Shown here: positions 16,545-47,321 of the stretch, in pieces
Numbering within the stretch: position 1 is the first letter of the stretch
How the letters are laid out: each line of letters opens with the position of its first letter
NCBI GenBank assembly: GCA_021234155.1
Contig: JAJEKV010000011.1
Span: forward strand, 14,361,255-14,425,254
From: Isoetes taiwanensis
Lineage: Eukaryota > Streptophyta > Lycopodiopsida > Isoetales > Isoetaceae
Length of the DNA stretch: 64,000 nt
Direction: 5' to 3'
Position numbers and translations under genes: made by a program
Notes under the pieces: generated by a model
Told to the model about the DNA's origin: nothing
Database searches by the model: none
The model's input: only the letters and a program-made list of their open reading frames with translations

Positions 16545-17111
16545 CTGGAATTGTGCACATATCCCGAATAGCACAAATCGTGGAGTGATTATGGCCGTGG
16601 AGTCAAATAACACAAAGGGAAGAAACATATACACCAAGCAAATGTCGGTTTTTATAAGCGAATCATTTTATGAACAACTCGGAACAAACACTACTCTGAT
16701 TTATCTAATACAATGTACTAAGCAAAGTTTCATAGCCCAGAATTTAGCATGCAAAACGAAGCACAATAAATCGTGGCATGCATCTTCTTGACACCTGCAA
16801 CCCGATAAGAAGAGCGAAAGAGGAAAGATCATCAAATTGGTCCTTGAATCATACGAAAGGAAAAAAAATTTATTTTTGGGTTATCGGAATATTTTTCCGG
16901 CTGCCAAACTCCCTATAACCTTATGCAACTGGCCTGAAAAAAAAATTCAAAAAGTTTCCCACTTGCCGGAAAAACCAAATTTAAACAATAGGATTAAATT
17001 AAATAACAATGCAGAAATAGGGTCGACTTTTTTAGTCGTCGTTGCATTTCTAGATTGACAGGTCACTGCAAACAACCCGAAAAGGCAAGTGGATGCCCTG
17101 ATTCCGCGATG
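16545..17111. other. No recognised gene
   Basis: AT-rich flank between the exon cluster and the transposon terminus. Poly-A and gaaaaaaaaatt runs occur, with no supported gene. Confidence 0.4.
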
Positions 17112-17560
17112 GTTTTAAGTACGCCGGATTTGGGTTGGCCTCCCATGGAAACCCTTCCGATTTTCTATGGAAACCCTTCCGGCTTTCAATAAAATCCGGA
17201 AGGGTTTCCACGGAAATTCGGAAGGGTTTCCATGGAAATAAGGAAGGGTTTCCATGGAAATAAGGAAGGGTTTCCATGGAATTATTTTTTTTTCAAAATA
17301 TTTACACACGTGAGCCTTTATGGCTCACGCTTTTCGACACGGACGCCCGACATTAAGGCTCACGTCCATCGAGTGCACGTCACCCCAAAATTCAAATTTT
17401 GAGTGGAAACCCTTCCCGATTTCCTTGCATAATGGAAATTAGGAAGGGTTTCCACAGGAGGAGGAAAATAGGAAGGGTTTTCGCACAAGGAGGAAAATAA
17501 GTATTGTTTCCACATGAGGAGGAAAATAGGTAAGGTTTCCACATGCAGTTAGAAATTCCA
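17112..17560 (+). mobile_element. DNA-transposon terminus with inverted GGAAACCCTTCC units
   Basis: From ggttttaagtacgcc inward, the sequence is an array of ggaaacccttcc and its reverse complement ggaagggtttcc, at least nine units in both orientations, wrapped around a spacer with gcctttatggctcacgc and gcacgtca. The same layout, reversed, lies at 46627-47094, including the shared phrase gggttggcctcccatgg. I read both as ends of one transposon family. This copy opens rightward but no transposase was found beside it. The peptides in this block are by-products of the repeats. Confidence 0.65.
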
Positions 17561-22834: not shown

Positions 22835-23797
22835 CTAGAAGATGAACGTGTCATCAGCATATTGATTGCAAACCTCTTGTGTGCCGTCCTCCATTGCAAG
22901 ACCATGGATAAGTCCCTCTGTGGTTGCAACGGTAAATAACTGCGACAAGGCCTTTGCAACAATTGTGAAAAGCAATGGTGCTAAAGGGCAACCCTGGCAA
23001 ATACCACGACCGAGTGCAAAGGCATCTGATGGCTCACCATGGAACATCGCTCGAGCAGAGATATGCAGCTTCATAATTATCTGATGTGAACTGATCCCCA
23101 AATCCCAGTCTTAGCAAACATCGGCGCATGAACTCCCAGCTGACACTGTCATACGCCTTTGTGAAATCAAGCTTAAGATACACCACTGGAAGGTTTTGCT
23201 TACGTGCCCAATAAATTCCCTCGTAAGCAGCAGCAACATTGTTCAAAATGCACCGTTTTGGAAGAAAATCTGACTGGGTTGTTGAGATGGATTCTCCTTT
23301 ACCCGCTCTGTGAAAGCCTTGGCGAATATCTTATATACGGATGACAATAAGGTGATGGGCCGCCAGTCTGAAATAGTCTGAGGATCCTTGACCTTGGGGA
23401 TGAGTGAGATGGCACCTGTGTTTAGAATTCTATCCAAAGCAGTGGACCGTCGAAAGTCGCAGAAAGCATCATACACATCTGGCTCCAGCCATTCCCAATA
23501 CTTCTGGAAGAACTCGATTGGCAAACCATCCAAACCTGGGCATTTGCCTCTTTTTAGTTCAAAGACTGTCGAACCTAAATCATCAGCTGTTATAGCCGCC
23601 TCTATTGACTCGCGCTGCTCACCAGAGATGATGGGGGAAATCCTAGACAAAACAGCATCTCGCATTTCTGATTGAAAAGGAAGATGTTTCTCAGCAAAAA
23701 ATGTCTGGAAGTGGTTATACAGATGTTGCTTGAGTTCAGTCGGCTCTGTTAGAACCGAACCATTCGGCAAAAGCAATGCGGACATGGTCGCCGTCAT
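22835..23797 (-). pseudogene. L1 reverse transcriptase catalytic core, frameshifted
   Basis: Three overlapping frames make up the core. 23243-23797 holds KRGKCPGLDGLPIEFFQKYW, GAISLIPK and DWRPITLLSSVYKIFAK. 23034-23246 holds LKLDFTKAYDSVSWEF with the first catalytic Asp. 22835-23101 holds GICQGCPLAPLLF and QYADDTFIF with the paired Asp. At least two frameshifts separate them. The RT signature residues themselves are retained, so decay is moderate. Confidence 0.9.
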
Positions 23798-23829
23798 GCG
23801 ACGCCTCTTAGCCGCACCGAAAAAAAAGC

Positions 23830-24582
23830 TCTACACGCACATCATCACGCGTTTTGGTTGTCCCACGGAACTTGTTAGTGATCGTGGTGTGCATTTTGTC
23901 AATCATACCATTAAGGAGCTGACGGACTATCTTCACATCCAACACCGGAAGAGTACACCTTATTATCCTCAAGGAAATGGATTGGCTGAAAGTACCAACA
24001 AAACTCTCATCACTATTCTCAAAAAAATTTGTGACGCTTCTCGCACAGATTGACAAGATAAGTTGCCTACTGTTCTTTGGGCTTACAACACCAGTTTTAA
24101 GATTGCTACTGACCACACTCCTTTCAAACTAGTTTATGGACAAGAAGCTCTCATGCCTTTTGAATATATTCTTCCGACTCTCTGCTTCCAACTTGCTACA
24201 GCACATAATCTACCTGCTGCACTCAAGGAACGGGTTTATCAATTGGAACGCTTGGATGAACTTCGGCGAGATGCTTACATTCGTGTTCTTCATGGACAAC
24301 AGTTGCAGAAATCATTGCATGACAAAAGACTTAAAACAAAAACATTCAAAGAAGGAGATTTGGTTTATTCACGTTACAAAAATTTTCCGGGCAAGTTAAA
24401 GTTTAGATGGCTTGGTCCTTATCAAATTGTTCAAGTGGTGCAACCCAGTGTTTTCAAGCTGGCTGAACTCGATTACCTACTCTTGTTAATGGTTTTCGCC
24501 TTAAACTATTTCATACAGAAGTTACAGACAGTTCTACTCCAGATGCACCACACAGTTCTGACACCACAGATAGTGACTAAAA
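23830..24582 (+). pseudogene. Ty3-type integrase, C-terminal two thirds
   Basis: It begins at ITRFGCPTELVSDRG, containing the second Asp of the D,D,E triad; the first Asp is missing by truncation. PYYPQGNGLAESTNKTL contributes the Glu. A TGA at 24051-24053 interrupts an otherwise continuous frame before LPTVLWAYNTS. Downstream are HTPFKLVYGQEALMP and KFRWLGPYQIVQV, the usual C-terminal DNA-binding part, then a further frame change near 24467. It is inactive. Confidence 0.9.
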
Positions 24583-25489
24583 GAGGCATATTTATATTAC
24601 TAGAGGCAATATTACAAAATGTGAGCCGCCGCTCACTATTTTCCGCTATGAGCCGAAGCTCTATTTACAAAATCCTACAGAGAAAAACCCTCTACTCTGG
24701 GTTTGGAGCAGAGGTGATGCACAGGATGTGGTAATAGTTCTGCTCCGGATCCCAGCGCAGGTGAATCACCACCTCCATCCCGTTGGTGTGGGGATCGGGG
24801 TGCTCAGCCATCCCACGGCACCACCCATCCATGGGAATGCCATGGTTGTGGCACCTCCACAGGTCCAAGCAGTCCATCTTGCATGTTATCCACTCGAGGC
24901 AGTTCGAAGGCATGGTGCACTTGTCGTGAAGTCCTGCAGCAGACATACTGAGCGCCATCGGCTGTCTCAGCTTCACCCACTGTTTCTCTTATATAGCCAA
25001 CCGAGGCCCTCCCTGTCGACGTGGACCAATCAGCAAATTTGCCAACGTGTTAGCAATGCAAGGCTCTTTCTAATTCCAGAATCTTTTCTCCCGCCGCATA
25101 TCTAGCCATGGTACCTTCTGACACTTTCGTTTTAATGATATCCCACTTCGAGTTGCCAGCATTAAATGACATTCCTTCTTTTCCCACCCGTCGAACATTA
25201 ATGTGTGTCCTTTCGCCAGCTGTCACATCAGATCATTCCCTTACGTCTCATCGCCACCGTTCAATGCTTCTCCATTTACCGTTTGGGGACTTAGCCAAAA
25301 TTTTGCCTCTCAATCGCCTCCTTCGCATCTGTCGCCACCTGGCATCATCAACGGTTGCATGTTCATCCTCATCATGCCCCTTCGCCAACACTTGTGTGCC
25401 CTAAAACCTTTTCGCCTATCTGCGTCTTCGTCTTCCGCTCTCCGCCTTCGCAACACAGTTCTTCCTGTTCCTTTCCGACGCTCTTCGCC
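24583..25489 (+). other. Decayed linker between integrase and extra ORF
   Basis: Fragmentary frames are open, for example a 125-codon run at 24728-25105 with no recognised motif. From about 25400 it turns into a pyrimidine-rich leader ending in tcgccATGG, which resembles a 5' UTR with a good start context for the ORF at 25490. Confidence 0.4.
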
Positions 25490-27654: not shown

Positions 27655-27827
27655 AAAAATTGCGATACAGGAGTCAAACAGGAGTGCCCTCTATCCTCGA
27701 CTTTATTCGGGATATACATAGATGCATTACAAGGTTTCATAGCAGAACAGCAAGGGGACACGGACGCCCCTACACTAGGAGACACCAAAGTACCCATTAT
27801 GCTATATGCTGATGACCTAAGCATGAT
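27655..27827 (+). pseudogene. LINE reverse transcriptase, left part (interrupted by LTR element)
   Basis: It encodes GVKQECPLSSTLFGIYIDAL and LYADDLSM, the RT palm with its paired catalytic Asp. The frame stops making sense at 27828, where an LTR begins. It resumes in the same phase at 40888 once the LTR element and one copy of ATGAT are discounted. The 5' part of RT is absent and the start at about 27650 abuts a T-rich run. Confidence 0.9.
27823..27827. repeat. Target-site duplication ATGAT, left copy
   Basis: ATGAT directly precedes TGTGACG of the 5' LTR and recurs at 40883-40887 directly after the 3' LTR. Confidence 0.9.
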
Positions 27828-27837
27828 TGTGACGTTC

Positions 27838-27874
27838 CAGGGAAATATACGCCATAAATACGTATATTTCCAGG
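27838..27874. promoter_or_regulatory. Hairpin at LTR 5' edge
   Basis: Inverted repeat ggaaatatacg ... cgtatatttcc, an 11-bp perfect stem with a short loop. It is conserved at the same place in the 3' LTR (39258-39292), as expected of a cis element of the U3 end. Confidence 0.7.
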
Positions 27875-27987
27875 CCCATCACTATACAAGTCTATCTTCA
27901 TAGCCTTGTATACCATAGATTGTGGCACTAGGGGGCATGACTAAGTTATTCATATAACTTAGCCAACCTTAGGTCAAGACCGTTTTC

Positions 27988-28098
27988 CACGTGGCCTTAA
28001 CCTATTGGGCACCCGCCACATGGACTTACCCTATTGGAGCCACGTGGCATAACATGTGAACCCTAACCTATAAAGGCCTAAACCCTAACCCTAGGCCT
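27988..28098 (+). promoter_or_regulatory. Putative LTR promoter: two G-boxes, TATA, telo-box
   Basis: CACGTG occurs at 27988-27993 and 28041-28046, each beside a ctattgg (inverted CCAAT-like) motif. A ctataaag TATA-like box is at 28068-28075, then aaaccctaaccctagg, a plant telo-box-like string. The order fits a pol II promoter with transcription starting near 28100. The same arrangement is present in the 3' LTR. Confidence 0.55.
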
Positions 28099-29478
28099 CT
28101 TTTTTCTCGCTCCAACAAATGGGGGAACCTTCTTGGCCGAAACTCCGCTTTGAGAACCGTCATTGCCGGGCACAAAGATAGCATGGCAGCCCCCAGAGCA
28201 TGAGTGCATCAGCAGGAGTGGGAGCTACCTCGAACACCTCGAAAACTATGGAGACGCCAGGATTGGGAGGGAGTGCTTCTGGAGCAGGTATGTAGAGTAG
28301 TGCTCTTAGTAGTTCATCTGGAAGCTAGCACTCCAAATGGGTTAGTATTTCGTATCTAGAGTAGAGCTATCCTAGAACCCTTGTCCAACATCTTGAACCC
28401 TAATCAAGGAACCCTAACTGTAAGTTAGATATGTATGATTAGGTTAAGATGTTCTTATGATGATTATCATGATATGATGTTATGTGATGTTGGTTGATCA
28501 TGTTTGCTCCTCTTGTATTGGGAAGGGGGGTAGAGACCTAGTAGCCATTACGTAGTATGCTCCTAGTCTAGATCCCTTAGTTCCTATTATTATGCGGCCT
28601 ATGCATAGGAACCCACCAGGCTATGGAGGCTATGATGTGACTCAGCACTACACAACGGGGCTAGAGGCAATGCGGAGGGAGGATCCCTGCTGAGCGTGGC
28701 TACTGGGGATCCCATAGTGGGCTAAGCTTATGGTCGGTCACTTCGTGTGGGCCAGGCATGGGTCCGACACCTCCTGGGGCAATGGTGTCGCCCTGCCTCT
28801 CAAGAGTTACAAGTGTTGGCTTGGCTCTTGTTTTGGGGGGTTAAGTCGGGTAAGAATCGTATGTCGCCACGATTCTCTAGCCGCCCGTGGAACCTCTAGA
28901 CCCCGGGAAAGGGAGATGCAACCCTTCCTGCCTCGACGGACCAGGGAGATGCAACCTGGAGTAGTCCCGATGGGTGATGCCATGGGATTGCATATCCGGA
29001 AGGCTAAAGTCATGCCAGAGCTTGATCTATCCCATCTGCAAAGTATGCACAGGAGGGGCGGATGGAGTGGTCAACCCTAGCCATTGTCTATAGCCAGCCC
29101 CGCCATTGTTATGACTCGGTCTGCTCTATCTTGAGGCCTAGCCGTCAGTCTACCTCCCCATGAGTCTGAGCCTTGGGTAGGAGCTCTCATGTTTTACGGT
29201 ATATGTTTGTCTCTGTTGTAGCTATGGATATGTGGATGTGCTACCCTTCGAGGTAGTATGATGTATTGTTATTGTTAGTTCTGATGTTGTTTATGCTTCC
29301 GCTGTGATAGGAGCCCATAAAGGGAAGGGCGCGCAAGACACCTTCGTGTCCCCTTCTCGCACTAGGGATACCCTGGAGTGGGGGATAGACGGAGGGCCCA
29401 TGCGGTCGAAGGACCGGATGGGGGATTTCCTACGGAGTGTACGGCCGGGCGCCGTATATTTTGTAGGGAGCATCACAA

Positions 29479-29490
29479 TGGTATCAGAGC
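29479..29490 (+). promoter_or_regulatory. Primer-binding site for initiator Met tRNA
   Basis: TGGTATCAGAGC lies one base after the LTR end. It is complementary to the 3' end of plant initiator methionine tRNA, the usual primer of plant LTR retrotransposons. Confidence 0.92.
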
Positions 29491-30116
29491 AATGTTTTTG
29501 GTTGACCAAGAGCTAGCCCTGACCATATCCCTAAATAGGTAGACTAACTGGCCTAGCTAATTAATGGAATGAGAATTCCAGTCTTGAACCGTGAAATGTG
29601 GGAGAAAATTTTTCCCCATTAGCAGGATCATAATTAGATTAAGTATAGTCTAAGTGAGAAATAATATAGTCAAACGAAACCTTCTAGTAAATTTGAGCTC
29701 AAGTTGTTCATGAACGCAGAAAATTGAACGAGAAATCGCTCAAAAGAAGCTTGAAAGAAAATGGCGTGAAATGACGACTACTTGGCCCAAAAGAAACTAG
29801 GAAATTTTGAGAAATAGTTAAGTAATTAGGGAAAGTACCTTAATTAATAACCCATAGTTATAATAAAATTACTCTTAAAGAAAAGTAGTTACTAAACCTA
29901 TGGAAGCACCTCTACCCCCTAGAAGTTTCCAAATGGTAGCTTGAACCTCTCCTTTACCCTTGTAAGGCGAATTATAAGCTAATCTCCGAAGCTGCCATAA
30001 GAGTGTCCACCGAACGAACAACCGACGAGATCGATCCAAAGGAGCCGCGAATAGACATAGTCGACCATTGATAGAGGCAAGATCGCTCGAAGAGGCCACC
30101 ATCAAGGAAGCTAAGT
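29491..30116. other. Retrotransposon leader, no gene seen
   Basis: The region between PBS and the H3-like sequence is AT-rich, with frequent stops in all plus frames. Confidence 0.5.
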
Positions 30117-31215
30117 GTCGGGAGGACCAAACAAGCAGCTAGGAAGGTTGGAAGGTCCAGCTTGCACCAGAACATTGAAGCACCCACGGTGGGCGGCGAT
30201 AAGCAAATTCTTGAGGCCCTGCGACCTAGGCCAGATGACAAACTTAGCCACTCAAGCTCTTCAGGCGAATCGTTGCACTCGTGGAGGAGCAATGACTTAG
30301 CATTTCAGGTCAATGATCGCAAGGCTCGTGGGAAATTGAGATTGTGGCGCCTACTTCTGGAGGTGAGGAGCAAGTAGCAAGAGCAACCTTGGCAATACGA
30401 GCAACCCCAGCCGCAGGAACAGCAGCAAGGGGAGCGAGCAATCAATGCGAAAGAAAAGGAAGGAAGAGACGTAGGCAAGGGAGAAGCGAACAAAGAGGCG
30501 TAAAGCTAGGCGTAGGGGCGAGGTTATCAGAGAACCACAGCCGGACGAATTGCAGGAGGATGAGTCCGAGGAGGAAGGACCACATCAACAGGAGGGGGGA
30601 GCAAGAGGCTAAAAAAGAAGAGGAGGAGGAGGCCGAAGAACAGATGGAGTCTACGCTCGGCAACCATATCCAATGCAGTCCAAGGAGAGCAACATCAGCG
30701 AGAAGCTACTTAAAGCTAAAGCAAGATATGGAGTAGGAGAAGAAGAAAGCAGCATGCAAGATTTATCTCCGCCAACGGATCTGACAAGGTAGCCGACCAG
30801 GGTCGAAAAGCCAGCCTCCACCACCTCGACTCGATTCTCCGAAGAAGGTCTGCCATGGGCCAAATCCCCAGCACATTAGAGCTGCTCAGCATATTTGGCA
30901 TTGCCAACAGCGTACCAGTCTGATGATCCAGAAAGTCTCTTTTCGAGTGCCTACATCAAAGGTCTATGCAGGAGTTCAAGATGGGCTACGACTACCGAGC
31001 CACATCAACGACGGTGAGGTCCCGCCAGGAAGCGGCCAAAGTCGAGGAGGCCAAGATCTGCACCCTTGATGGTCCGAGCCCTGTAGGAGGCAGCAGAGGC
31101 GGAGCTGGTACAACCTTTTGAAGAAGGCAACCTCTGCGCAATGCATGCCATGCGGGTGACAGTCATGCCCAAAGACCTCCATCTGGCGAGGAGGATTCAC
31201 AAGGAGAAGCCGTGA
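30117..31215 (+). pseudogene. Histone H3-like pseudogene inside the LTR retrotransposon
   Basis: Three frames read in H3 order. At 30117: VGRTKQAARKVGRSS, close to the ARTKQTARK tail. At 30836: SPKKVCHGPNP...CQQRTSLMIQKVSF, matching the KKPHRYRPG...QKSTELLIRKLPF block less strongly. At 31069-31215: MVRAL, stop, [20 protein letters not shown], then [14 protein letters not shown] and a TGA seven residues later, a strong match to the last half of the H3 fold. TAG at 31084 replaces the Gln of ALQEAAEA. At least two frame changes, a roughly 100-bp insertion before helix 2, and a long basic/acidic linker (30380-30760) are present. Tail length and divergence could suit a CENH3-type variant, but this is not proven. 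It occupies the usual gag position. Confidence 0.75.
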
Positions 31216-31341
31216 AGAGCTCTAGTTTAGTAAACTATATAAATATAAGTTTTCCTTGTACATTTTACTCGTTTTTCTTTGTGTGATGCTTAGAATGCTT
31301 ATAATAGGTTAAGTAGCATAAAGTATTAGCACACAAGAATC

Positions 31342-31900
31342 AACTTTGCTTCAAAAAATTGGCAAACTGCGTGAGACCGCGCCGATTGGCCCTGTGTTCG
31401 CAACGCAGAGTGATTTCGCGCGAACTCACCGGGGTACCGCGATTTCGAGAAAAATTGATCCAAAATTTGTGCTAAAAGTTAGTAGATTGCTTAGAATTTG
31501 CTTAGGAACCCGGTTTAGAACCAAATTTCAGCAAAAATCATTTAAGATTGGCAAAATTCAGCTAACCCGGATGAGAACGCGCCGATTGGCCCTGCGTTCG
31601 CAACGCAGAGCAATTTCGCGCGAACTCACCCCGTTGCCTTGAAATTCCACTTTTAGATGCTCATTTTGCTTGAAATAAGTTGCTAATTAGCTTAGAAGTA
31701 GCCTAAATAGGCATTTTAGAGTTTTATAGTTCTTAAATTGTTGACTTTTTGTAATAAATTAGGGTACCAGGGTGAGACCGCGCCAGAAGGGTGTGCGTTG
31801 AGAACGCAGATGCCATTGGCGCTATCTCACCCGGGTTTCATGGTTTTGGCGCTATCTCACCCGGGTCTCATGGTTCCAACCAAAAATTCAGCAAAATTGC
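31342..31900. repeat. Three ~200-bp tandem units with hairpin cores
   Basis: Units begin near 31342, 31542 and 31742; the landmark gagaccgcgcc or gagaacgcgcc falls at 31373, 31573 and 31773. Units 1 and 2 share gccgattggccctg, tgcgttcgcaacgcag and tttcgcgcgaactcacc. Within a unit, gtgag...cgcgc pairs with gcgcg...ctcac around an inner tgcgtt/aacgca stem. Unit 3 is more diverged and carries a doubled ggcgctatctcacccgggt. The frame across it (31346-31642) is a repeat by-product. Confidence 0.75.
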
Positions 31901-34416
31901 TTTGGAAAAGGTCGTAGTGCACATGCTAGTTCCCTGTCATGCATTCTAGGGTCTTGTAGTACCCCATTCTAGCTTTTCAATCCATTTGAACCTCATCTTA
32001 AAAGAATTCCCACCGTAGCGGGAATTGAACCTCCCACCGACAGGGTTGAACCCCCCCAAACCCCCTCGTTCCAACCACTGAGGGCGGGCATCGTTTATGT
32101 TTGAATTATAATTCTTAATTAGATTTAAGCTTTAAGAATGTTAGATAATATTAATGACCAAGCCTTAGACTTAGAACCAAGACCTTTAAGCTAGATAGAG
32201 ACAGCATCTGCATTCATCCCAGCTTAGTTGTCGCTCTTATCTTGCTAAGTGCCTTTTTGTCTACATACAGGTAGTATAATCAAGCCTTTTTCTTAGAAAC
32301 CAAGCTAGTTGCCAAGGCCTTAGAAATTGTTGTCACACGTTGGTATGATACACCAACACACGCGATAGGTGCACTACCATCAAGAGTCTTCGCCATGCCT
32401 TTTGTAGCATAGAAAATTATCCAGGAATTCATTCTATCTAGGTAATTTAGTGTAACACACCAAGTACACACAGTGAATAAGTCTCCTTCTACCATCCCAT
32501 GATAGTAAATAAGTACCTTTCTCAGTGTCTAGTAAAGTGCCAAATGCCAAGTGAACGTAAATAATTGTTGTTGTGATAGTATTAGTTGCCTTGTGCTTAG
32601 GGCAGTAATATAGGGCAGAAGAACCTTCGTTGCAGATCCTCGAGCCTCGACAGTGGAGCCACTCGACAACATCAACGAGTTGAAAACAGAAGGAAACCAT
32701 ATGAAGGAAACTTCAGCAAATCAAAAGCCAAAACGGTGTACAGGGAAGTCCGAACACGAAAAATAAAGGAGAGCCTATAGGAAGGATGATTGCGACATCA
32801 AGATTAGACACAAGAATTGCCAAGAGGGCTATGCAACAGCCAGTGGGCATCATGGCACTTACAAAATTGATCACATTAGGGGAGGAACATCTCCTAGTCA
32901 AGGATATTATCCAAGTGCCATATTGTCTTGAGGAAGGGCCCGACATCGATGACTAATGTTTAGAGATATGCCACCAACAAGTAGACGACTTCATCGACTC
33001 ATGACATCAAGAGTTCTGAAGGATGAGACTGAGCATACCTCCTAGGAAGGGCAACTATAGCAGATATAGAGGCCATAATAGTATCAGATTCAGACTTCAA
33101 GCAAAGATGCTTTGGCTAAGGAGGTATTACAAGCCAGCAAGGGTGGGCTGCTCAGAAATAGGAATATGGCGAGACTGCAACAAATTTCTTCCTCATCAGT
33201 CCCAATACTTCAGAGCGGCTACATCAACCTCGGCAGCACCATCGCAAGCTCATGATGATCTTCGATCTTCCACCTTAGGGATTGGAGGTCTAACGCCATC
33301 AACAAGAAGCACCATGGGGGACCTAATACCAGCATTACTAATTGATCAGTCAAAATTACAATCCGTGCACATGGATGCAAATAAACTTCTCTCAAGAAGA
33401 GAAGTTGCACAGTTAGAGGTGGTAAAGCACTCGACATTGTCATCAGCCTTATAACAGCAGCATGTGGCCGCCAAGATGAAGAATCAAATCAACAACGTCA
33501 ACACAACAACATCAATTCAGGAGTTAGAAGAATCATCCTCAAATCTCGCAACCTTCAAGGCAGATGAGTCAAACACGAAAGATTCTACACGGTGGTGAAC
33601 ATTACCTTCAAGCTCTTGGGATGCGACACCGAGCGTTACGTTATCTACTACATCATCAAGTCCACTAAGATGGATAATTTTAATGAAGGTAGTCAACATC
33701 AACATTAAGGACTAGAAGAGCTAGAATATGTTCGACAAAAGGAACAGGGCACATGAATGATTATACAACAACTCCAAGGAGACCAGATTTTTCAACAAAG
33801 TATGGATCATCGCCTTGCTACCCCAACGACTAACGACTACACCAGCTTTAAGCAAGCTAGAGGACCTATCAGATAGTTGAATATCTTAGAATTATGGGTG
33901 ATAACATCCATGATGGGATGGGGACGAAATTTCGAGTAGATTTTTGTCATTTCTTTTAAAAGGGATGGACCCAAGAATGGAGCAAAGCTTCAAGGATTGG
34001 GAAGAAAAACGTATGGAGTACAATACTTGTATACATTGATGACAGATATCCAACATATTGGAACCTCTTCGTGAGCTTGATCACCTCGCTAAGAAGGATT
34101 CAATAATAGGATAATCATCGACCATGTATATGACGAGTACTTCCACAGCATAAGGAATAATCCGATCAAATGAAGGGAAGCAATCTAATAAGTCCGGCCA
34201 ACTTCTTAGATGGCATCAACTCAAAGGTGGGACTATTTCAAGAGGGCAATAATTAAGAAAGGGGAGATCCTAGAGTATAGATTAGATCTAAAACAAGAAT
34301 AATTATCTAATCATATAGTTTTCTATGTGTGCCCAAAAGTAAGGTCATGCTTACTAAACTTGTGGCCATAGGATTTATGTAAGTAGTTCCTTAACTTGTA
34401 ATTTTGCACCTTCTAG
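31901..34416 (+). other. Degenerate gag/pol-leading region
   Basis: Short plus-strand pieces look coding but are broken. Examples are ARIAKRAMQQPVGIMALTKL (about 32750-32940) and fragments near 33590-33900 whose style resembles gag core. A 143-codon frame at 33023-33454 has no clear motif. No CCHC zinc knuckle was identified. I treat this as a worn gag and leader region of the LTR element. Confidence 0.4.
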
Positions 34417-35099
34417 ATGGCGGACATCTTTAAGAGCAAGACTCTTAAGTCTAAATCTAGGTCAGTATTATGGCAAGGCCGAGCAGTTAGCAGCACCAAC
34501 GGAACAAAAGTCAAGTTCGACATCAACCTTAAGCGAAGCAAAGTAGAGCATCGGCACCAACTTATGTACATTGGCAACTATGACCTCATAATAGGCATGC
34601 AATATTAAAGCTGGCTAAGGCAATAATTGATTATCATAAGCAAGAGATACTTATCCCAGCACCAAAGGGCAAGTACCCTATAATTTAAGTTAAAGAAGTA
34701 ATTCCAATCGTGCAACGCATGCCAATAAAGCAATTACTTAAGTACATCATGAGGAATGAGGTCGTATATAAGCTACAAGTTGTCGACCCCGACCATAAGA
34801 GTAAGAAGGAAGATGCTACGTCGGAACAGTTGCCTCGACCAATTTCTAAGTTAATCAAGAAGTCCCATGATATACCTCCAGATGAAATTTGAGAGCTTTT
34901 GCTCTATAGATACATAGAGTCTGAAATCACTCTTGCACCAGATGCAGAGCCTACCAGCAAAGCTCTTTATAGAATGAGCACTTTCGAGCTAGTAGAACTC
35001 AAGAAGCAGTTGTAGGAGTTGATCGACTTGGGATCCTTTCAGCTAGGATGGAAGTCTAAAGATGTATATCAACCATGGGCAGCTCAACAAGCAAACGAC
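34417..35099 (+). pseudogene. Ty3-type protease end and RT start, copy 1
   Basis: Broken by stops but readable in order: NYDLIIGMQY (end of the aspartic protease, usually DLIIGMDWL), a linker with EQLPRPISKLIKKSHDIP, then APDAEPTSKALYRMS and ELVELKKQL, stop, ELIDLGSFQL, the conserved entry to Ty3 reverse transcriptase. Normal RT would continue to its catalytic FVDD-type motif, but here the sequence jumps into TGACG-rich DNA at 35099. It is inactive. Confidence 0.85.
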
Positions 35100-35373
35100 G
35101 TTTTCCCTGACGTTTCTTCTGACGCCTCATCTGACGTTTTTTCTAACGAAAATTCTGACGTTACACCTGACGCAAGATTCTGACGATTCTTCTGACGATA
35201 CTTCTGACGATACTTCTGACGTTTAATTTTTGACGATTTGTCTGACGTTTTGACCTGACGATATATCGTCAGGAATTTAATCGTCATGATAATCGTCAGG
35301 ATATTCGTCAGGACATAACCATTCAATTTACCTGACGATTTTTCTGACGCCAAACCCTCATCCTCTTGTAGTG
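35100..35373 (-). mobile_element. Truncated CACTA element end with TGACG subterminal repeats
   Basis: The right edge reads ctcttgtagtg, the reverse of CACTACAAGAG, a plant CACTA terminus. Internally there are about 18 TGACG/CGTCA pentamers (mostly tctgacg), with the orientation switching at a perfect 20-bp palindrome, cctgacgatatatcgtcagg (35254-35273). Subterminal short repeats in both orientations are typical of CACTA ends. No opposite terminus or transposase is present. Confidence 0.7.
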
Positions 35374-36010
35374 GTAATTATGGCAAGGCCGAGCAGTTAG
35401 CAGCACCAACGGAACAAAAGTCAAGTTCGACATCAACCTTAAGCGAAGCAAAGTAGAGCATCGACACCAACTTATGTACATTGGCAACTATGACCTCATA
35501 ATAGGCATGCAATATTAAAGCTGGCTAAGGCAATAATTGATTATCATAAGCAAGAGATACTTATCCCAGCACCAAAGGGCAAAGAAGTAATTCCAATCGT
35601 GCAACGCATGCCAATAAAGCAATTACTTAAGTACATCATGAGGAATGAGGTCGTATATAAGCTACAAGTTGTCGACCCCGACCATAAGAGTAAGAAGGAA
35701 GATGCTACGTCGGAACAGTTGCCTCGACCAATTTCTAAGTTAATCAAGAAGTCCCATGATATACCTCTAGATGAAATTTGAGAGCTTTTGCTCTATAGAT
35801 ACATAGAGTCTGAAATCACTCTTGCACCAGATGCAGAGCCTACCAGCAAAGCTCTTTATAGAATGAGCACTTCCGAGCTAGTAGAACTCAAGAAGCAGTT
35901 GTAGGAGTTGATCGACTTGGGATCCTTTCAGCTAGGATGGAAGTCTAAAGATGTATATCAACCATGGGCAGCTCAACAAGCAAACGACAAAATGGATCAG
36001 CCCCAAGAAG
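35374..36010 (+). pseudogene. Ty3-type protease/RT-start fragment, copy 2
   Basis: This near-identical repeat of 34466-35098 resumes at tatggcaaggccgagcag right after the CACTA end and runs past the copy-1 breakpoint (gcaaacgac) into aaaatggatcag. One short segment present in copy 1 (about 34672-34691, taccctataatttaagttaa) is missing. The same internal stops occur in both copies, so the fragment was already dead when duplicated. Confidence 0.9.
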
Positions 36011-36647
36011 CAAGATTCTTCTACAAGATACTAAAAATATCTCCTTTTTTTTTGCAGCTGGGATTTGCCCAGAGTTTTATTCATTGGAACCCTGTTATTG
36101 TGTTAAGCACTTATGTAGATTGCATAGTTACTGTCGTCCAGCCAATGATATGCAAGTACTGAGAAGAAATTACCTTTATGATCAAGAATTTAATTTAAGT
36201 TTGACAATCTACAATTCTATATCTTGAAAGCCCCGTTTGTAGCTCGTAGAACATCACTCAATGAATCAAGGAAATTTAGTTTCCTTAAAGGAAAGGTGAT
36301 CTTAAATTTTAGCCACAGGTGATGAAATCCATCAATGGATGGTCTAGCAATGTGACGTTTGATTGAACAAACTAAAAGCATAGGACAAAGTTAAAGAACA
36401 ATTGAACGCAACCATATTATCTTCCTAACAACTCATGACAGAGGAACGAAAGGCATCGAAATTTGGCACACGAAACCAAAAAGCTCGAAAGCATAGAGAT
36501 TTGATTCGTTTGGCATCGTGGCTTATATGCAATGATTTTGTGCGCACTTAGGTTCTTTTGTATCCAAATGAACACATAATCAAAACATACTTAATTGTTA
36601 TTCACATAGATAGTATATTAAGCAATTTCACCAGTAAAGGTAGTTAT

Positions 36648-36910
36648 TTGAAACATTCTACCAAATTGCTTGCTTTAAATTAATCAAGAATCATTCATTA
36701 CGGTTTACTTGAAACATTCTACCAAATTGCTTGCTTTAAATTAATCAAGAATCATTCATTACGGAACTGCACATATTGTAGAGTGCACTGGGGTAAAGAT
36801 CATTGTAGTTATTTGAAACATTCTACCAAATTGCTTGCTTTAAATTAATCAAGAATCATTCATTACGGAACTGCACATATTGTAGAGTGCACTGGGGTAA
36901 AGATCATTGT
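36648..36910. repeat. Three copies of a 56-bp repeat
   Basis: ttgaaacattctaccaaatt through cattcattacgg occurs at 36648-36703, 36709-36764 and 36813-36868. Copies 2 and 3 also share the following gaactgcacatattgtagag through aaagatcattgt, giving a 104-bp period. Confidence 0.92.
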
Positions 36911-38110
36911 TACAGAACTGCACATTTTGTATGGGCTTGACCTTATCCTAACATGTTGAAGCTCACAAGGCCTAATATTTAGAAGAGGTTAAAGAGCATC
37001 TTGCAACACCGCATTGTAAACAAATCATAAATCTAGGTGCATGTTCCACTCTATCATGACAAATCAAGCTTAGACTTGACAAATCAAGCTTAGACTTAAC
37101 ATGCCTTTAAAACGAACAGCATATTAAACAAAGAAAAAGGGGTAATATGTCGTCGTCTACAGGAAAACGGGATGATTTTGTATTCTATAGAGGAAGGGTG
37201 CTTCGTGTGTGGATATTAGTTTTTCTTTTGCCCATTGGGGTTAGTGGGTACAATTGGCCCGAGGACCTAGACAACTACCAAGAATAGATTAAAACAAAAA
37301 TTATGCCAACAATATAGACTAAGGGGAATCCATAAACGTTAAATAAAACAATTGGGCAAATTGGCTTGATGAACCTCCTTTAAATTAAACCTAACTCGCC
37401 ATCTCAACACCCATCATGTAGGCAACGCATCTACCTCAGCATGCCATGTGCAGGCAACGCATCTACCTCACCTTCGGATTTCTGTGACAACTATATGCCT
37501 ACATGGATGCGCAGAGGATTGTCCTAAATAGCAGTTAAAAATAAATTCTAATAGACCAGATAGACCTTCATGCATGCAAGCATTTTACAGTTGTGGATGC
37601 ACTCATATGGTGACACAACATAATGATAGTTGGTTGAGAGAAAATACCTCGTTAGAATTATTGTAATCAAGCACATCAGTTTCAACTAAAAGCGAAGACA
37701 GGTTCTGGTACTCATCCTGTAACCTCCCCAGAATTACTGACATTCTTGAGAATCATTAAACTTTGCAAGATCTACAAACTTCAAAGGTTGCCAAGCGAAT
37801 CTTGCAATTTTCTGTTGAAACCAGCTTTTCCCTGAATATGCAAAAATGACACTTAGTTGCAGAGAAAACTATCAGATTAATGAAGGCGAGTACCTTGCTT
37901 GCATGACGTTGAGTAAGGCATGAATAGAAGGGATAAGTGTAAGAAACATATGTAAACGTTTTTAACGACTATCAATGTCACTAAGGCCTACTGAACTTGA
38001 AGAATAGAGATATATAGGGTGCACCTGAACTGTTGCATCTTCCCAGGCTGGCTGGCCTGCGTGCTCTTAAATCTGCCAAGCGCAGATCTGTCTGCAAATT
38101 ATAGCTCATT

Positions 38111-38217
38111 TAAATTATATAACGGTTGAGATTGTTATGCCTCCATTGAAGAGGCTAGAAAGCAGCATTTCAGGAGTATCAGCCGTAGCTGCTCTACTAT
38201 CAAACCAGGGCAAAAGC
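38111..38217 (-). other. Exon-like segment, unidentified
   Basis: Following tatttgcag on the minus strand, one frame reads LLPWFDSRAATADTPEMLL and then SSLFNGGITIST, protein-like in composition. No good donor site marks its end. It lies inside the LTR element and may be captured host sequence. Confidence 0.3.
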
Positions 38218-39233
38218 TGCTGCAAATATTGGATCGAATGGTTTCATTTTTTGTGTCTACGAAAAAGGATGAGGCCTGAAAAGCCATGGAAGTGAAAAAG
38301 ATGTGCTCTTGATACTGTGGTGGTCTGCATAGCCATATGGGCGAAAATAATTGAGCGGATAAAACTGCACTTGGGTTCAGCCATATATAGGCGACATACA
38401 TTCACTTGAGCCTTTTACCTGTTGATTTCCTTCTTCCTCCAGTTTAATAGTGCCGGAGTAGAGCTCAAATTGCAAGCAATCCTGCTTTAGACTTGGAGTA
38501 AAAAATAGAGCTCCTGTTAGTATGTATATATTCTATGTATTTGCTGGCATTAGAAGCCATTCGCATGCCTTGGTGTAACCAGCAATTTCTCAGCCCCAAT
38601 CTCCTGTTTCCCCATTGAAATGCTCTGTTTTTTGCGAAATGCTCTGTTTTTCCCTAAAAAAACCTCTCCTTCTTACATCCCAGAAAATTCAAAGAAAAGA
38701 ATGGACATAATTGAACCTTTGCTTCCGGTTAGCCAGAGAAATTGCTTTAGGAGTTCAGAAAAATCTGGCTATGTCTTCCTCCAACACAAGATTTCTTCAA
38801 TCTCCAGTTTCATGCCAAGAATTACTGGCTTCTTAGATCTAGAGCTTGGGGAAAGGGCAAATTGACTCCCTGTTCTTGATGGTTCAACAAAGCCAGGGTA
38901 ATCTCCAAACCTGACTTAATGAAGTGCGTAATCTCCAAGCCTGAATGAAACTCAGCCGTTATCTCCGCCGCCCTCCTATCGCTCCGCCAAAAGACTCTCC
39001 CTCCCTCTCACCCGACGCGAACACCCGGAAATGCCTATTCCGGCGCCAAAAATAGATATAGATAATTCGAAATGGCCCTTTTTGTAACCGGCTTTTTTTC
39101 TAATAATTTTATATAGTAATTAACGAAAAGTTGATCTTTTCAATAGAGTTAAGTTCATATATTCTTGTTGGGAGTTTTGCAGGGCTGTTGCAGGTTCGTC
39201 ACCTTAGCGTAATGCTGAGGACAGCATTATCCT

Positions 39234-39246
39234 AAGGGGGGGAGAA
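39234..39246 (+). promoter_or_regulatory. Polypurine tract of the LTR element
   Basis: AAGGGGGGGAGAA abuts TGTGACG of the 3' LTR, the typical layout of plant Ty3 elements. Confidence 0.92.
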
Positions 39247-40882
39247 TGTGACGTTCCAGGGAAATATACGCCATAAATACGTATATTTCCAGGTCCGTCA
39301 CTATACAAGTCTATCTTCATAGCCTTGTATACCATAGATTGTGGCACTAGAGGGCATGACTAAGTTATTCATATAACTTAGCCAACCTTAGGTCAAGACC
39401 ATTTTCCACGTGGCCTTAACCTATTGGGCACCCGCCACACGGACTTACCCTATTGGAGCCACGTGGCATAACATGTGAACCCTAACCTATAAAGGCCTAA
39501 ACCCTAACCCTAGGTCTCTTTTCTGGCTCCAACAGTCTGGGAACCTTCTTCGCGCTCGAAACTCCGTTTCGAGAACCGTCTGCTGTGGCACAGCATAGCA
39601 TGGCAGCCCCCAGAGCATGAGTGCATCAGCAGGAGTGGGAGCTACCTCGAACACCTCGAAGACTATGGAGACGCCAGGATTGGGAGGGAGTGCTTCTGGA
39701 GCAGGTATGTAGAGTAGTGCTCTTAGTAGTTCATCTGGAAGCTAGCACTCCAGATGGGTTAGTATTTCGTATCTAGAGTAGAGCCATCCTAGAACCCTTG
39801 TCCAACATCTTGAACCCTAATCAAGGAACCCTAACCGTAAGTTAGATATGTATGATTAGGTTAAAATGTTCTTATGATGATTATCATGATATGATGTTAT
39901 GTGATGTTGGTTGATCATGTTTGCTCCTCTTGTATTGGGAAGGGGGTAGAGACCTAGTAGCCATTACGTAGTATGCTCCTAGTCTAGATCCCTTAGTTCC
40001 TATTATTATGCGGCCTGTGCATAGGAACCCACCGAGCTATGGAGGCTATGATGTGACTCAGCACTACACAACGGGACTAGAGGCAATGCGGAGGGAGGAT
40101 CCCTGTTGAACGTGGCTACTGGGGATCCCATAGTGGGCTAGGCTTATGGTCGGTCACTTCGTGTGGACCGGGCATGGGTCCGACACCTCCTGGGGCAATG
40201 GTGTCGCCCTGCCTCTCAAGAGTTGCAAGTGTTGGCTTGGCTCTTGTTTTGGGAGGTTAAGTCGGGTACGAATCGTGTGTCGCCACGATTCTCTAGCCGC
40301 CCGTGGAACCTCTAGACCCCGGGAAGGGGAGATGCAACCCTTCCTCCTCGACGGACCAGGGAGATGCACCTTGGAGTAGTCCCGATGGGTGATGCCATGG
40401 GATTGCATATCCGGAAGGCTAGAGTCATGCCAGAGCTTGATCTAGCCTATCTGTAAAGTATGCATAGGAGGGGCGGATGGAGTGGTCAACCCTAGCCATT
40501 GCCTATAGCCAGCCCCGCCATTGTTATGACTCGGTCTGCTCTATCTTGAGGCCTAGCCGTCAGTCTACCTCCCCATGAGTCTGAGCCTTGGGTAGGAGCT
40601 GTCATGTTTTACGGTATATGTTTGTCTCTGTTGTAGCTGTGGATGTGCTACCCTTCGAGGTAGTATGATGTATTGTTATTGCTAGTTCTGATGTTGTTTA
40701 TGCTTCTGCTGTGATAGGAGCCCATAGGGGAAGGGCGCGCAAGACGCCTTCGTGTCCCCTTCCCGCATAGGGATACCCTAAAGTGCGGGATAGACGGAGG
40801 GCCCATGCGGTCGAAGGACTGGATGGGGGATTTCCTACGGAGTGTACGGCTGGGCGCCGTATATTTTGTAGGGAGCGTCACA
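39247..40882 (+). mobile_element. 3' LTR (1636 bp)
   Basis: TGTGACG...CGTCACA with perfect 7-bp inverted ends. It is collinear with the 5' LTR, with scattered substitutions and short indels. It carries the same edge hairpin, paired G-boxes, TATA and telo-box-like strings. Confidence 0.93.
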
Positions 40883-40887
40883 ATGAT
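40883..40887. repeat. Target-site duplication ATGAT, right copy
   Basis: ATGAT follows CGTCACA and matches 27823-27827. Confidence 0.9.
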
Positions 40888-46626: not shown

Positions 46627-47094
46627 CGTGGAAACCCTTCCTATTTTCCCATGGCATTGGAAAATAGGAAGGGTTTCCATTTGAATTAAATTTTGAATTC
46701 TCGGGTGGCGACGTGCATATTTATGAGCGTGCCCCATTAATAGGCGGCGTCCGTCTTGAAAGGCGTGGTCCATAAAGGTCACCACGTGTCAATATTAAAA
46801 ATACTAAAAAAAAGGGGTGGGAAACCTTCCCATTTTCCATGGAAATCCTTCCGGTTTTCAAAATTGGAAACCCTTGTAAATTTCCCTGGAAATCCTTCCT
46901 ATTTTCTAACTTAGAAATTCAAAATGGTTTCCATGGAAATTAGGAAGGGTTTCCATAGAAACCCTTCCTGGTTTTAATGAAAGCTGGAAGGGTTTTCATG
47001 GAAAATAGGAAGGATTCCATAGAAATTTAGAAGGGTTTCCAGGGAAATTTGGAACGGTTTCCATGGGAGGCCAACCCAAATCGGGCGTACTTAA
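46627..47094 (-). mobile_element. DNA-transposon terminus with inverted GGAAACCCTTCC units
   Basis: This is the mirror of 17112-17560: the ggaagggtttcc array in both orientations, a spacer with ccataaaggtcaccacgtg, then gggaggccaacccaaat and ggcgtacttaaaacc at the outer edge (47094). The transposase-like pseudogene starts about 70 bp inside, reading away from this end, as expected for a gene within the element. Confidence 0.65.
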
Positions 47095-47321
47095 AACCAT
47101 CAGGTTGAACCGGTCACTCCATGTTTTTTCACTTTTTTTATAATACAACTCAAAGTTTTTCAGTTGTAAAGACCAACTCAAAGTGAGTTTTTCAGTTTCA
47201 CTTTTTCAATAATACTTAGGTTTTCAGTACTCAGAGTTACCACAATGCACATTCTAAATTTAATACATCAAAGTTATCACTCTATCAAAGTTACATCAGT
47301 ACTCAAAGTTACCACAGTAAA

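Follow-up and report, generated by a model that had tools for sequence, protein, structure and literature searches.

A degraded histone H3-derived sequence inside a complete LTR retrotransposon of Isoetes taiwanensis

Introduction

Extra coding blocks in plant LTR retrotransposons have been described in at least two settings. Retrosat2 has an additional ORF upstream of gag-pol, and RIRE3 and RIRE8 have an ORF0 (PMC3485330, excerpted text). In Phalaenopsis, Gypsy elements carry a captured ORF for an AlkB-type m6A demethylase (PMC9289625, excerpted text). The same excerpt, which reports a survey of 121 angiosperm genomes, has no histone among the domains that it names, these being part of a total of 15. 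None of the main texts of PMC7264820, PMC5408684, PMC11963269, PMC3726574 and PMC6431247 contains the word 'histone', and no H3-bearing retrotransposon was evident in the titles and abstract openings of the papers listed in our literature searches.

Here we describe a 64,000-nucleotide stretch of the Isoetes taiwanensis genome (contig JAJEKV010000011.1; hereafter the window), in which a broken histone H3-like sequence lies within an LTR retrotransposon. This element resembles Retrosat2, RIRE3 and RIRE8 in having an extra coding block between the 5' LTR and gag-pol, and Retrosat2 is likewise longer than 12 kb, with LTR ends (TGTCACACCC-GGGCGTGACA) of a similar kind. As far as the excerpted description of the Retrosat2 group goes, it differs in that its LTRs are ∼3 kb or longer, compared to 1.65 kb in the window element, and in that its ORF0 has no function assignable by similarity (PMC3485330). 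The Phalaenopsis elements are alike in being plant LTR elements with a host-derived domain as an extra block; however, according to the same excerpt as above, many consensus sequences retain their AlkB ORF, which is reported to be functional (PMC9289625).

Results

The LTR retrotransposon

The region 27828–40882 is one structurally complete LTR retrotransposon, having paired LTRs with inverted TG..CA ends (termini TGTGACG and CGTCACA/CATCACA), a target-site duplication (TSD), a primer-binding site (PBS) and a polypurine tract. Its features are as follows.

27823..27827, no strand: TSD ATGAT, 5' copy, read from the sequence, within a LINE reverse-transcriptase frame (5' part by eye)
27828..29477, plus strand: 5' LTR (TGTGACG...CATCACA), by BLASTN against the 3' LTR
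29479..29490, plus strand: PBS TGGTATCAGAGC, 1 nt past the LTR end
34417..36159, plus strand: decayed protease/reverse-transcriptase-like (PR/RT-like) stretch, internally duplicated, by period-3 signal and by-eye resemblance
39234..39246, plus strand: polypurine tract AAGGGGGGGAGAA, adjoining the 3' LTR
39247..40882, plus strand: 3' LTR, by BLASTN and its boundaries, with the TSD ATGAT (40883–40887) next to it

The two LTRs are 95.3% identical over 1660 columns (BLASTN) and differ by substitution at 60 of 1633 aligned sites (K2P 0.038). The PBS is presumably of the plant initiator tRNA-Met type. The element splits a LINE reverse transcriptase, the 3' part of which resumes at 40883; the piece 40718–41245 matches PF00078 with E=1.6e-5 and 25.2 bits, under the cut-off of 29.6, and three of the 10 pieces searched match the LINE zf-RVT domain, one of them above the curated cut-off. 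These LINE pieces and the type of PBS both indicate a plant.

The internal region is badly decayed, with 186 stops in one frame. Within it, the PR/RT-like stretch is duplicated (34467–35099 and 35377–35988, 96.2% identical) and is positive for period-3 (P<0.002 and P=0.004). The resemblance of this stretch is, we assume, to a Ty3/Gypsy-like reverse transcriptase. No Pfam match was obtained in the pieces of it that were tried, and a PDB search of two pieces returned no reverse transcriptase. As the protease and reverse transcriptase were recognised by eye and neither Pfam nor PDB yielded a reverse transcriptase, the Ty3/Gypsy assignment is tentative. The 277-nt spacer between the duplicates is rich in CTGACG motifs and is perhaps a MITE-like insert.

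Pfam searches covered part of the element's open pieces. One set of ten pieces gave nothing, and in a further ten only 31087–31212 reached a cut-off. Five of six single-frame readings were empty and the sixth returned a short H3 piece (E=0.043); 30720–30920 gave MukF_C at chance level (E=0.12).

Other repeats are present in the window. A Gypsy-type integrase remnant lies at 23676–24734 (rve, E=1.2e-4, under the curated cut-off), followed by ORFs to 26.5 kb. Two inverted segments of a repeat family, 17108–17455 and 46628–47101, are 72–86% similar and 30 kb apart.

A histone H3-derived block in the element

A degraded histone H3-derived sequence is present in the window. Its parts, together with the spacer that follows, are listed below.

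30117..30146, plus strand: H3 N-terminal motif VGRTKQAARK (MARTKQTARK-like, without ATG), ungapped match of 7/10
30147..30880, plus strand: purine-rich, T-poor linker between the H3 motif and the histone fold, by composition
30881..31086, plus strand: remnant of H3 alphaN-alpha1-L1, carrying two frame changes, extra codons and a TAG, by frameshift-tolerant alignment
31087..31215, plus strand: H3 alpha2-L2-alpha3 through to the C-terminus (42 aa), closed by TGA, by PF00125, PDB and period-3 signal
31216..34416, plus strand: spacer or possible gag region, without a Pfam match in any piece or reading tried

The 42-aa open piece 31087–31212 matches PF00125 (Histone) with E=1e-9 and 39.2 bits, against a curated cut-off of 26.4. 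Among solved H3 chains in the PDB search, its top match is H3.Y (E=1.5e-12), and H3.2 follows with 3.4e-12. We also performed a frameshift-tolerant local alignment of 30501–31400 with the plant H3.1 fold as reference. This gave a score of 147 over 30881–31209, with 46 of 87 aligned residues identical, while 200 first-order Markov randomisations had a mean of 30.3 (s.d. 4.0) and a maximum of 48. A chance match is therefore out for the histone fold. In the ungapped comparison, the decapeptide VGRTKQAARK, with seven of ten residues identical to MARTKQTARK, tops all matches in the six frames of the 64 kb window; the runners-up have 5/10, and by this count chance is out here also. On the other side, the best gapped alignment of 29951–30450 with the H3 tail placed the motif out of register, and 47 of 1000 randomisations did as well.

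The initial annotation had described three plus-strand H3 segments in order, with a C-terminal match too long to be chance, and had named a translated search as the check. All three segments are found where it placed them, and Pfam and PDB both recover the C-terminal one as H3. Of its middle segment, KK...TSLMIQKVSF, the fold part is aligned, but the 'KK' ahead of the fold lies outside the alignment. The alphaN-alpha1 block reads AAQHIWHCQQRTSLMIQKVSF from 30881, and the frame then changes to ...MQEFK. The H3 frame closes at the usual H3 C-terminus with TGA at 31213–31215.

The copy is broken, as described earlier: within 30881–31212 there are one stop (TAG at 31084–31086), two frame changes and 21 extra codons, which are divided over two sites in the interval from alpha1 to alpha2. 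In addition, the N-terminal motif has no ATG. The block in this copy is no longer able to make protein.

The linker and the coding signal

Where the tail of a normal H3 would be, the block has a linker of ∼730 nt. Its T content is 3–22% per 100 nt across 30.1–30.9 kb, and the T-poor, GC-rich composition spans from ∼30.0 kb to the H3 stop codon, where it ends. As plant introns are U-rich and this stretch is T-poor, the linker is disfavoured as a plant intron.

We tested twelve stretches of the element for period-3 signal. Those positive in the block were alphaN-alpha1 (P=0.014) and the H3 C-terminal piece (P=0.024). The signal was absent in the tail and linker pieces (P=0.67, 0.73 and 0.50), in the whole H3 block (P=0.79), in the 5' leader (P=0.35) and in the possible integrase region (P=0.95). 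The 3' spacer 31216–32316 was also weakly positive (P=0.030), and P values near 0.02 in this test are therefore not to be relied on. Open-frame lengths in the block show no excess over the expectation from composition (P=0.16). The suggestion that 30117–31215 forms a single reading frame is thus weaker than originally stated: the linker is without coding signal, so that the data do not establish one continuous ORF with a long tail.

Position of the block relative to gag

The LTRs at 27828–29477 and 39247–40882 flank the H3 block, which begins ∼630 nt past the PBS and ends ∼3.2 kb ahead of the PR/RT-like coding (∼34.4 kb). The earlier proposal that H3 occupies the gag position of an LTR element is thus borne out as to its place inside a complete element; the gag position itself, with ∼3.2 kb in between, is no more than a possibility. 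The block would fit equally well as an additional ORF ahead of gag-pol, of the kind described in Retrosat2. The 3 kb between the block and the PR/RT-like coding may hold a lost gag. No Pfam gag match was obtained in the pieces and single-frame readings of 31216–34416 that were searched, and a possible gag piece at 33020–33451 has no period-3 signal (P=0.25); a possible zinc-knuckle remnant was seen by eye at ∼34324–34363.

The same spacer has two further features. Just 3' of the H3 block, at 31372–31831, are three 59-nt repeats spaced 200 nt apart. On the minus strand at 31996–32080, a segment resembling part of a tRNA-derived SINE, with a box-B-like GGTTCAATTCC, was recognised by eye; this segment has no Rfam match at the gathering threshold.

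Long-tailed H3 proteins elsewhere

Our protein searches revealed multi-cluster families of long-tailed H3 proteins, designated A, A' and B (P0014, P0149, P0009 and others). Their members (P0014, P0021, P0062; P0149, P0151; P0009–P0012) combine a long linker, which is conserved, with an H3 fold close to the C-terminal end. The clusters hold up to 201 member sequences, and an H3-like N-terminal motif is present in most of those read. In a profile search, 4832 proteins, not necessarily all long-tailed, matched at E<=1e-10 among 7931 scored. Among the best 120 of these 4832 are P0028, a Nymphaea tandem H3 model, and thirteen others that were read (P0003, P0004 and P0006 included); these thirteen have a MARTKQ/MARMKQ tail, conserved linker blocks and an H3 fold in common. 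A search for longer proteins gave 136 matches at E<=1e-5 among 7981 scored; the best 120 of these include a branch of 650–750 aa (P0148–P0167), in which two of six members read start with MARTKQ.

Some members have additional parts. In P0131, the family A part comes after an env-like segment (by eye), Pfam giving Histone only. P0214 (1293 aa, 20 member sequences) has many C-x2-C...H...C motifs, by eye, and then an H3 fold. P0246 joins a Ulp1-type protease (PF02902) to an H3 fold. Six proteins with H3 and pol-like parts (P0186, P0191, P0193, P0200, P0235 and P0247) were rejected as captures: read by eye, the H3 in them is canonical or close to it, which makes them look like fused gene models or H3 genes with an insertion.

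The long-tailed families are likely to be genes of mobile elements or viruses, and the many distinct 90% clusters suggest mobile elements. No related locus in viral contigs was confirmed for three alignments. The AlphaFold model of family A has a pLDDT of 47.9, too poor for a structure search.

Families A, A' and B are like the window block in having a MARTKQ/MAKTKQ motif in most members read and, after a long linker, an H3 fold that lies at the C-terminus or close to it. They differ in being intact and known from proteins alone, and their H3 fold is not specially close to that of the window. The window forms no tree grouping with families A or B, its placement being unsure, and alignments of its linker with those of four family A members stay in the null range (the comparison was confined to family A linkers). 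On these sequence comparisons, we treat the three families as parallels and not as kin of the block.

Origin of the H3-derived block

We favour, with a probability of roughly 0.6, the interpretation that an LTR retrotransposon lineage captured an ordinary H3 sequence and carried it through transposition, the captured block being dead in the present copy. Weighing against it are the single copy known, a linker without coding signal, replacements that look neutral and a protein search that gave no close relative of the block.

The strongest competitor, which we consider unlikely all the same, is that of a later passenger: an H3 pseudogene that had decayed beforehand, alone or within a larger fragment, would have come into this single copy through nested insertion or gene conversion, without ever moving along with the element. 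Such a late arrival would agree with the element being known from one copy, with a block composition sharply unlike that of its flanks and with a linker that looks non-coding. A fresh retrocopy, however, would be expected to lie within a few percent of H3, whereas 14 of 42 residues differ in the best stretch, which disfavours a fresh processed H3 pseudogene. In a neutral simulation, 14/42 replacements from H3.1 need ∼25 nt changes per 126 nt. The divergence of the block is well above that of the LTRs, and set against their K2P of 0.038, it indicates that the block is older than the insertion or arrived decayed; it is too high for an H3 pseudogene newly added to the element once this had integrated. 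Moreover, no exact repeat over 9 nt is shared between 29700–30130 and 31205–32700, and no A-run over 6 nt occurs in 31213–31800, so that the zones searched bear no mark of the block having come in separately by a LINE-type insertion.

Less probable still is that the block is a remnant of an accessory ORF conserved across the family of elements, lying upstream of gag or replacing it, whose histone fold would serve packaging, nuclear targeting or histone-tail mimicry. The order of tail motif, linker and fold, which echoes the unrelated long-tailed families, points in this direction, as does the additional ORF that Retrosat2 and related elements have ahead of gag-pol (PMC3485330, excerpted text). 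On the other hand, the protein search yielded no close relative of the block, intact or otherwise (13 matches among 4626 scored candidates, the best with 47 bits); the linker has no coding signal; the block shows no sequence link to families A or B; and the C-terminal piece gives no sign of purifying selection (mean BLOSUM P=0.33, no-stop P=0.57). The replacements look neutral and hence leave no trace of selection.

As to the source of the captured sequence, the initial annotation had raised a CENH3-type variant and a link to centromere-targeted retroelements. In the fold alignments, canonical H3 sequences scored 145–149, families A and B 139–148, and the HTR12 and CENP-A reference sequences 101–105. 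The top score of 151, which runs counter to a canonical source, was that of P0002, named as a Coemansia Cse4. P0008 and P0013, which appear CENH3-like to us, scored 132 and 134; given these three proteins, the gap to the CENH3-like class is smaller than HTR12 and CENP-A imply. Over the C-terminal 41 residues, identity is 28/41 to H3.1 and 22/41 to HTR12, and at the 13 sites in this part where the two references differ, the window has the H3 residue at six, that of HTR12 at none and neither at seven. We also built a tree of 19 rows, in which the block sits on a very long branch (1.77) outside any supported group. Measured by path, it is nearest to plant H3.3 (53% identity over 87 columns), followed by H3.1; it meets CENH3_At as another long branch, and the program flags this placement as unsure. 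The block shares the C-terminal length of canonical plant H3.1/H3.3, from which it differs by its broken frames, extra codons and long linker. From these comparisons, its source looks canonical (H3.1/H3.3) and not CENH3. Capture of a CENH3-type gene tied to centromere-targeted elements, despite the P0002 score, an H at the plant CENH3 'RHFQ' position (IWHCQ in the window, read by eye, and also present in families A and B) and extra codons near loop 1, is very improbable in view of the low HTR12 and CENP-A scores and the 13 sites.

Discussion

Capture of an ordinary H3 by an LTR lineage would have proceeded as follows. A coding sequence of the H3.1/H3.3 kind would have entered the 5' part of the internal region; the simplest route is a switch of template to H3 mRNA while the element was being reverse-transcribed. 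It would then have been carried through transposition, diverging as part of the element. In the present copy, the H3 block and pol are both dead, and the copy was therefore probably mobilised by other elements. If ancestral copies expressed the block, its likeliest role would be that of an accessory histone-fold protein with an H3-like tail, which would pair with H4 or occupy histone readers and writers; K4 and K9 are kept in the GRTKQAARK tail motif.

A broader scenario, which we regard as doubtful, is that mobile elements took up H3 repeatedly and independently, each time keeping tail, fold and a long linker. The plant element described here would then be a decayed example, whereas families A, A' and B would be living, multi-copy ones, with H3 acting as a coat or mimic in dealing with chromatin and silencing.

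Uptake of host domains by plant LTR elements is already known; here, the domain is histone H3, in one dead copy. If other copies share the block, capture of H3 would have given a retroelement a handle on nucleosomes, or on the readers and writers of H3K4 and H3K9 that silence it.
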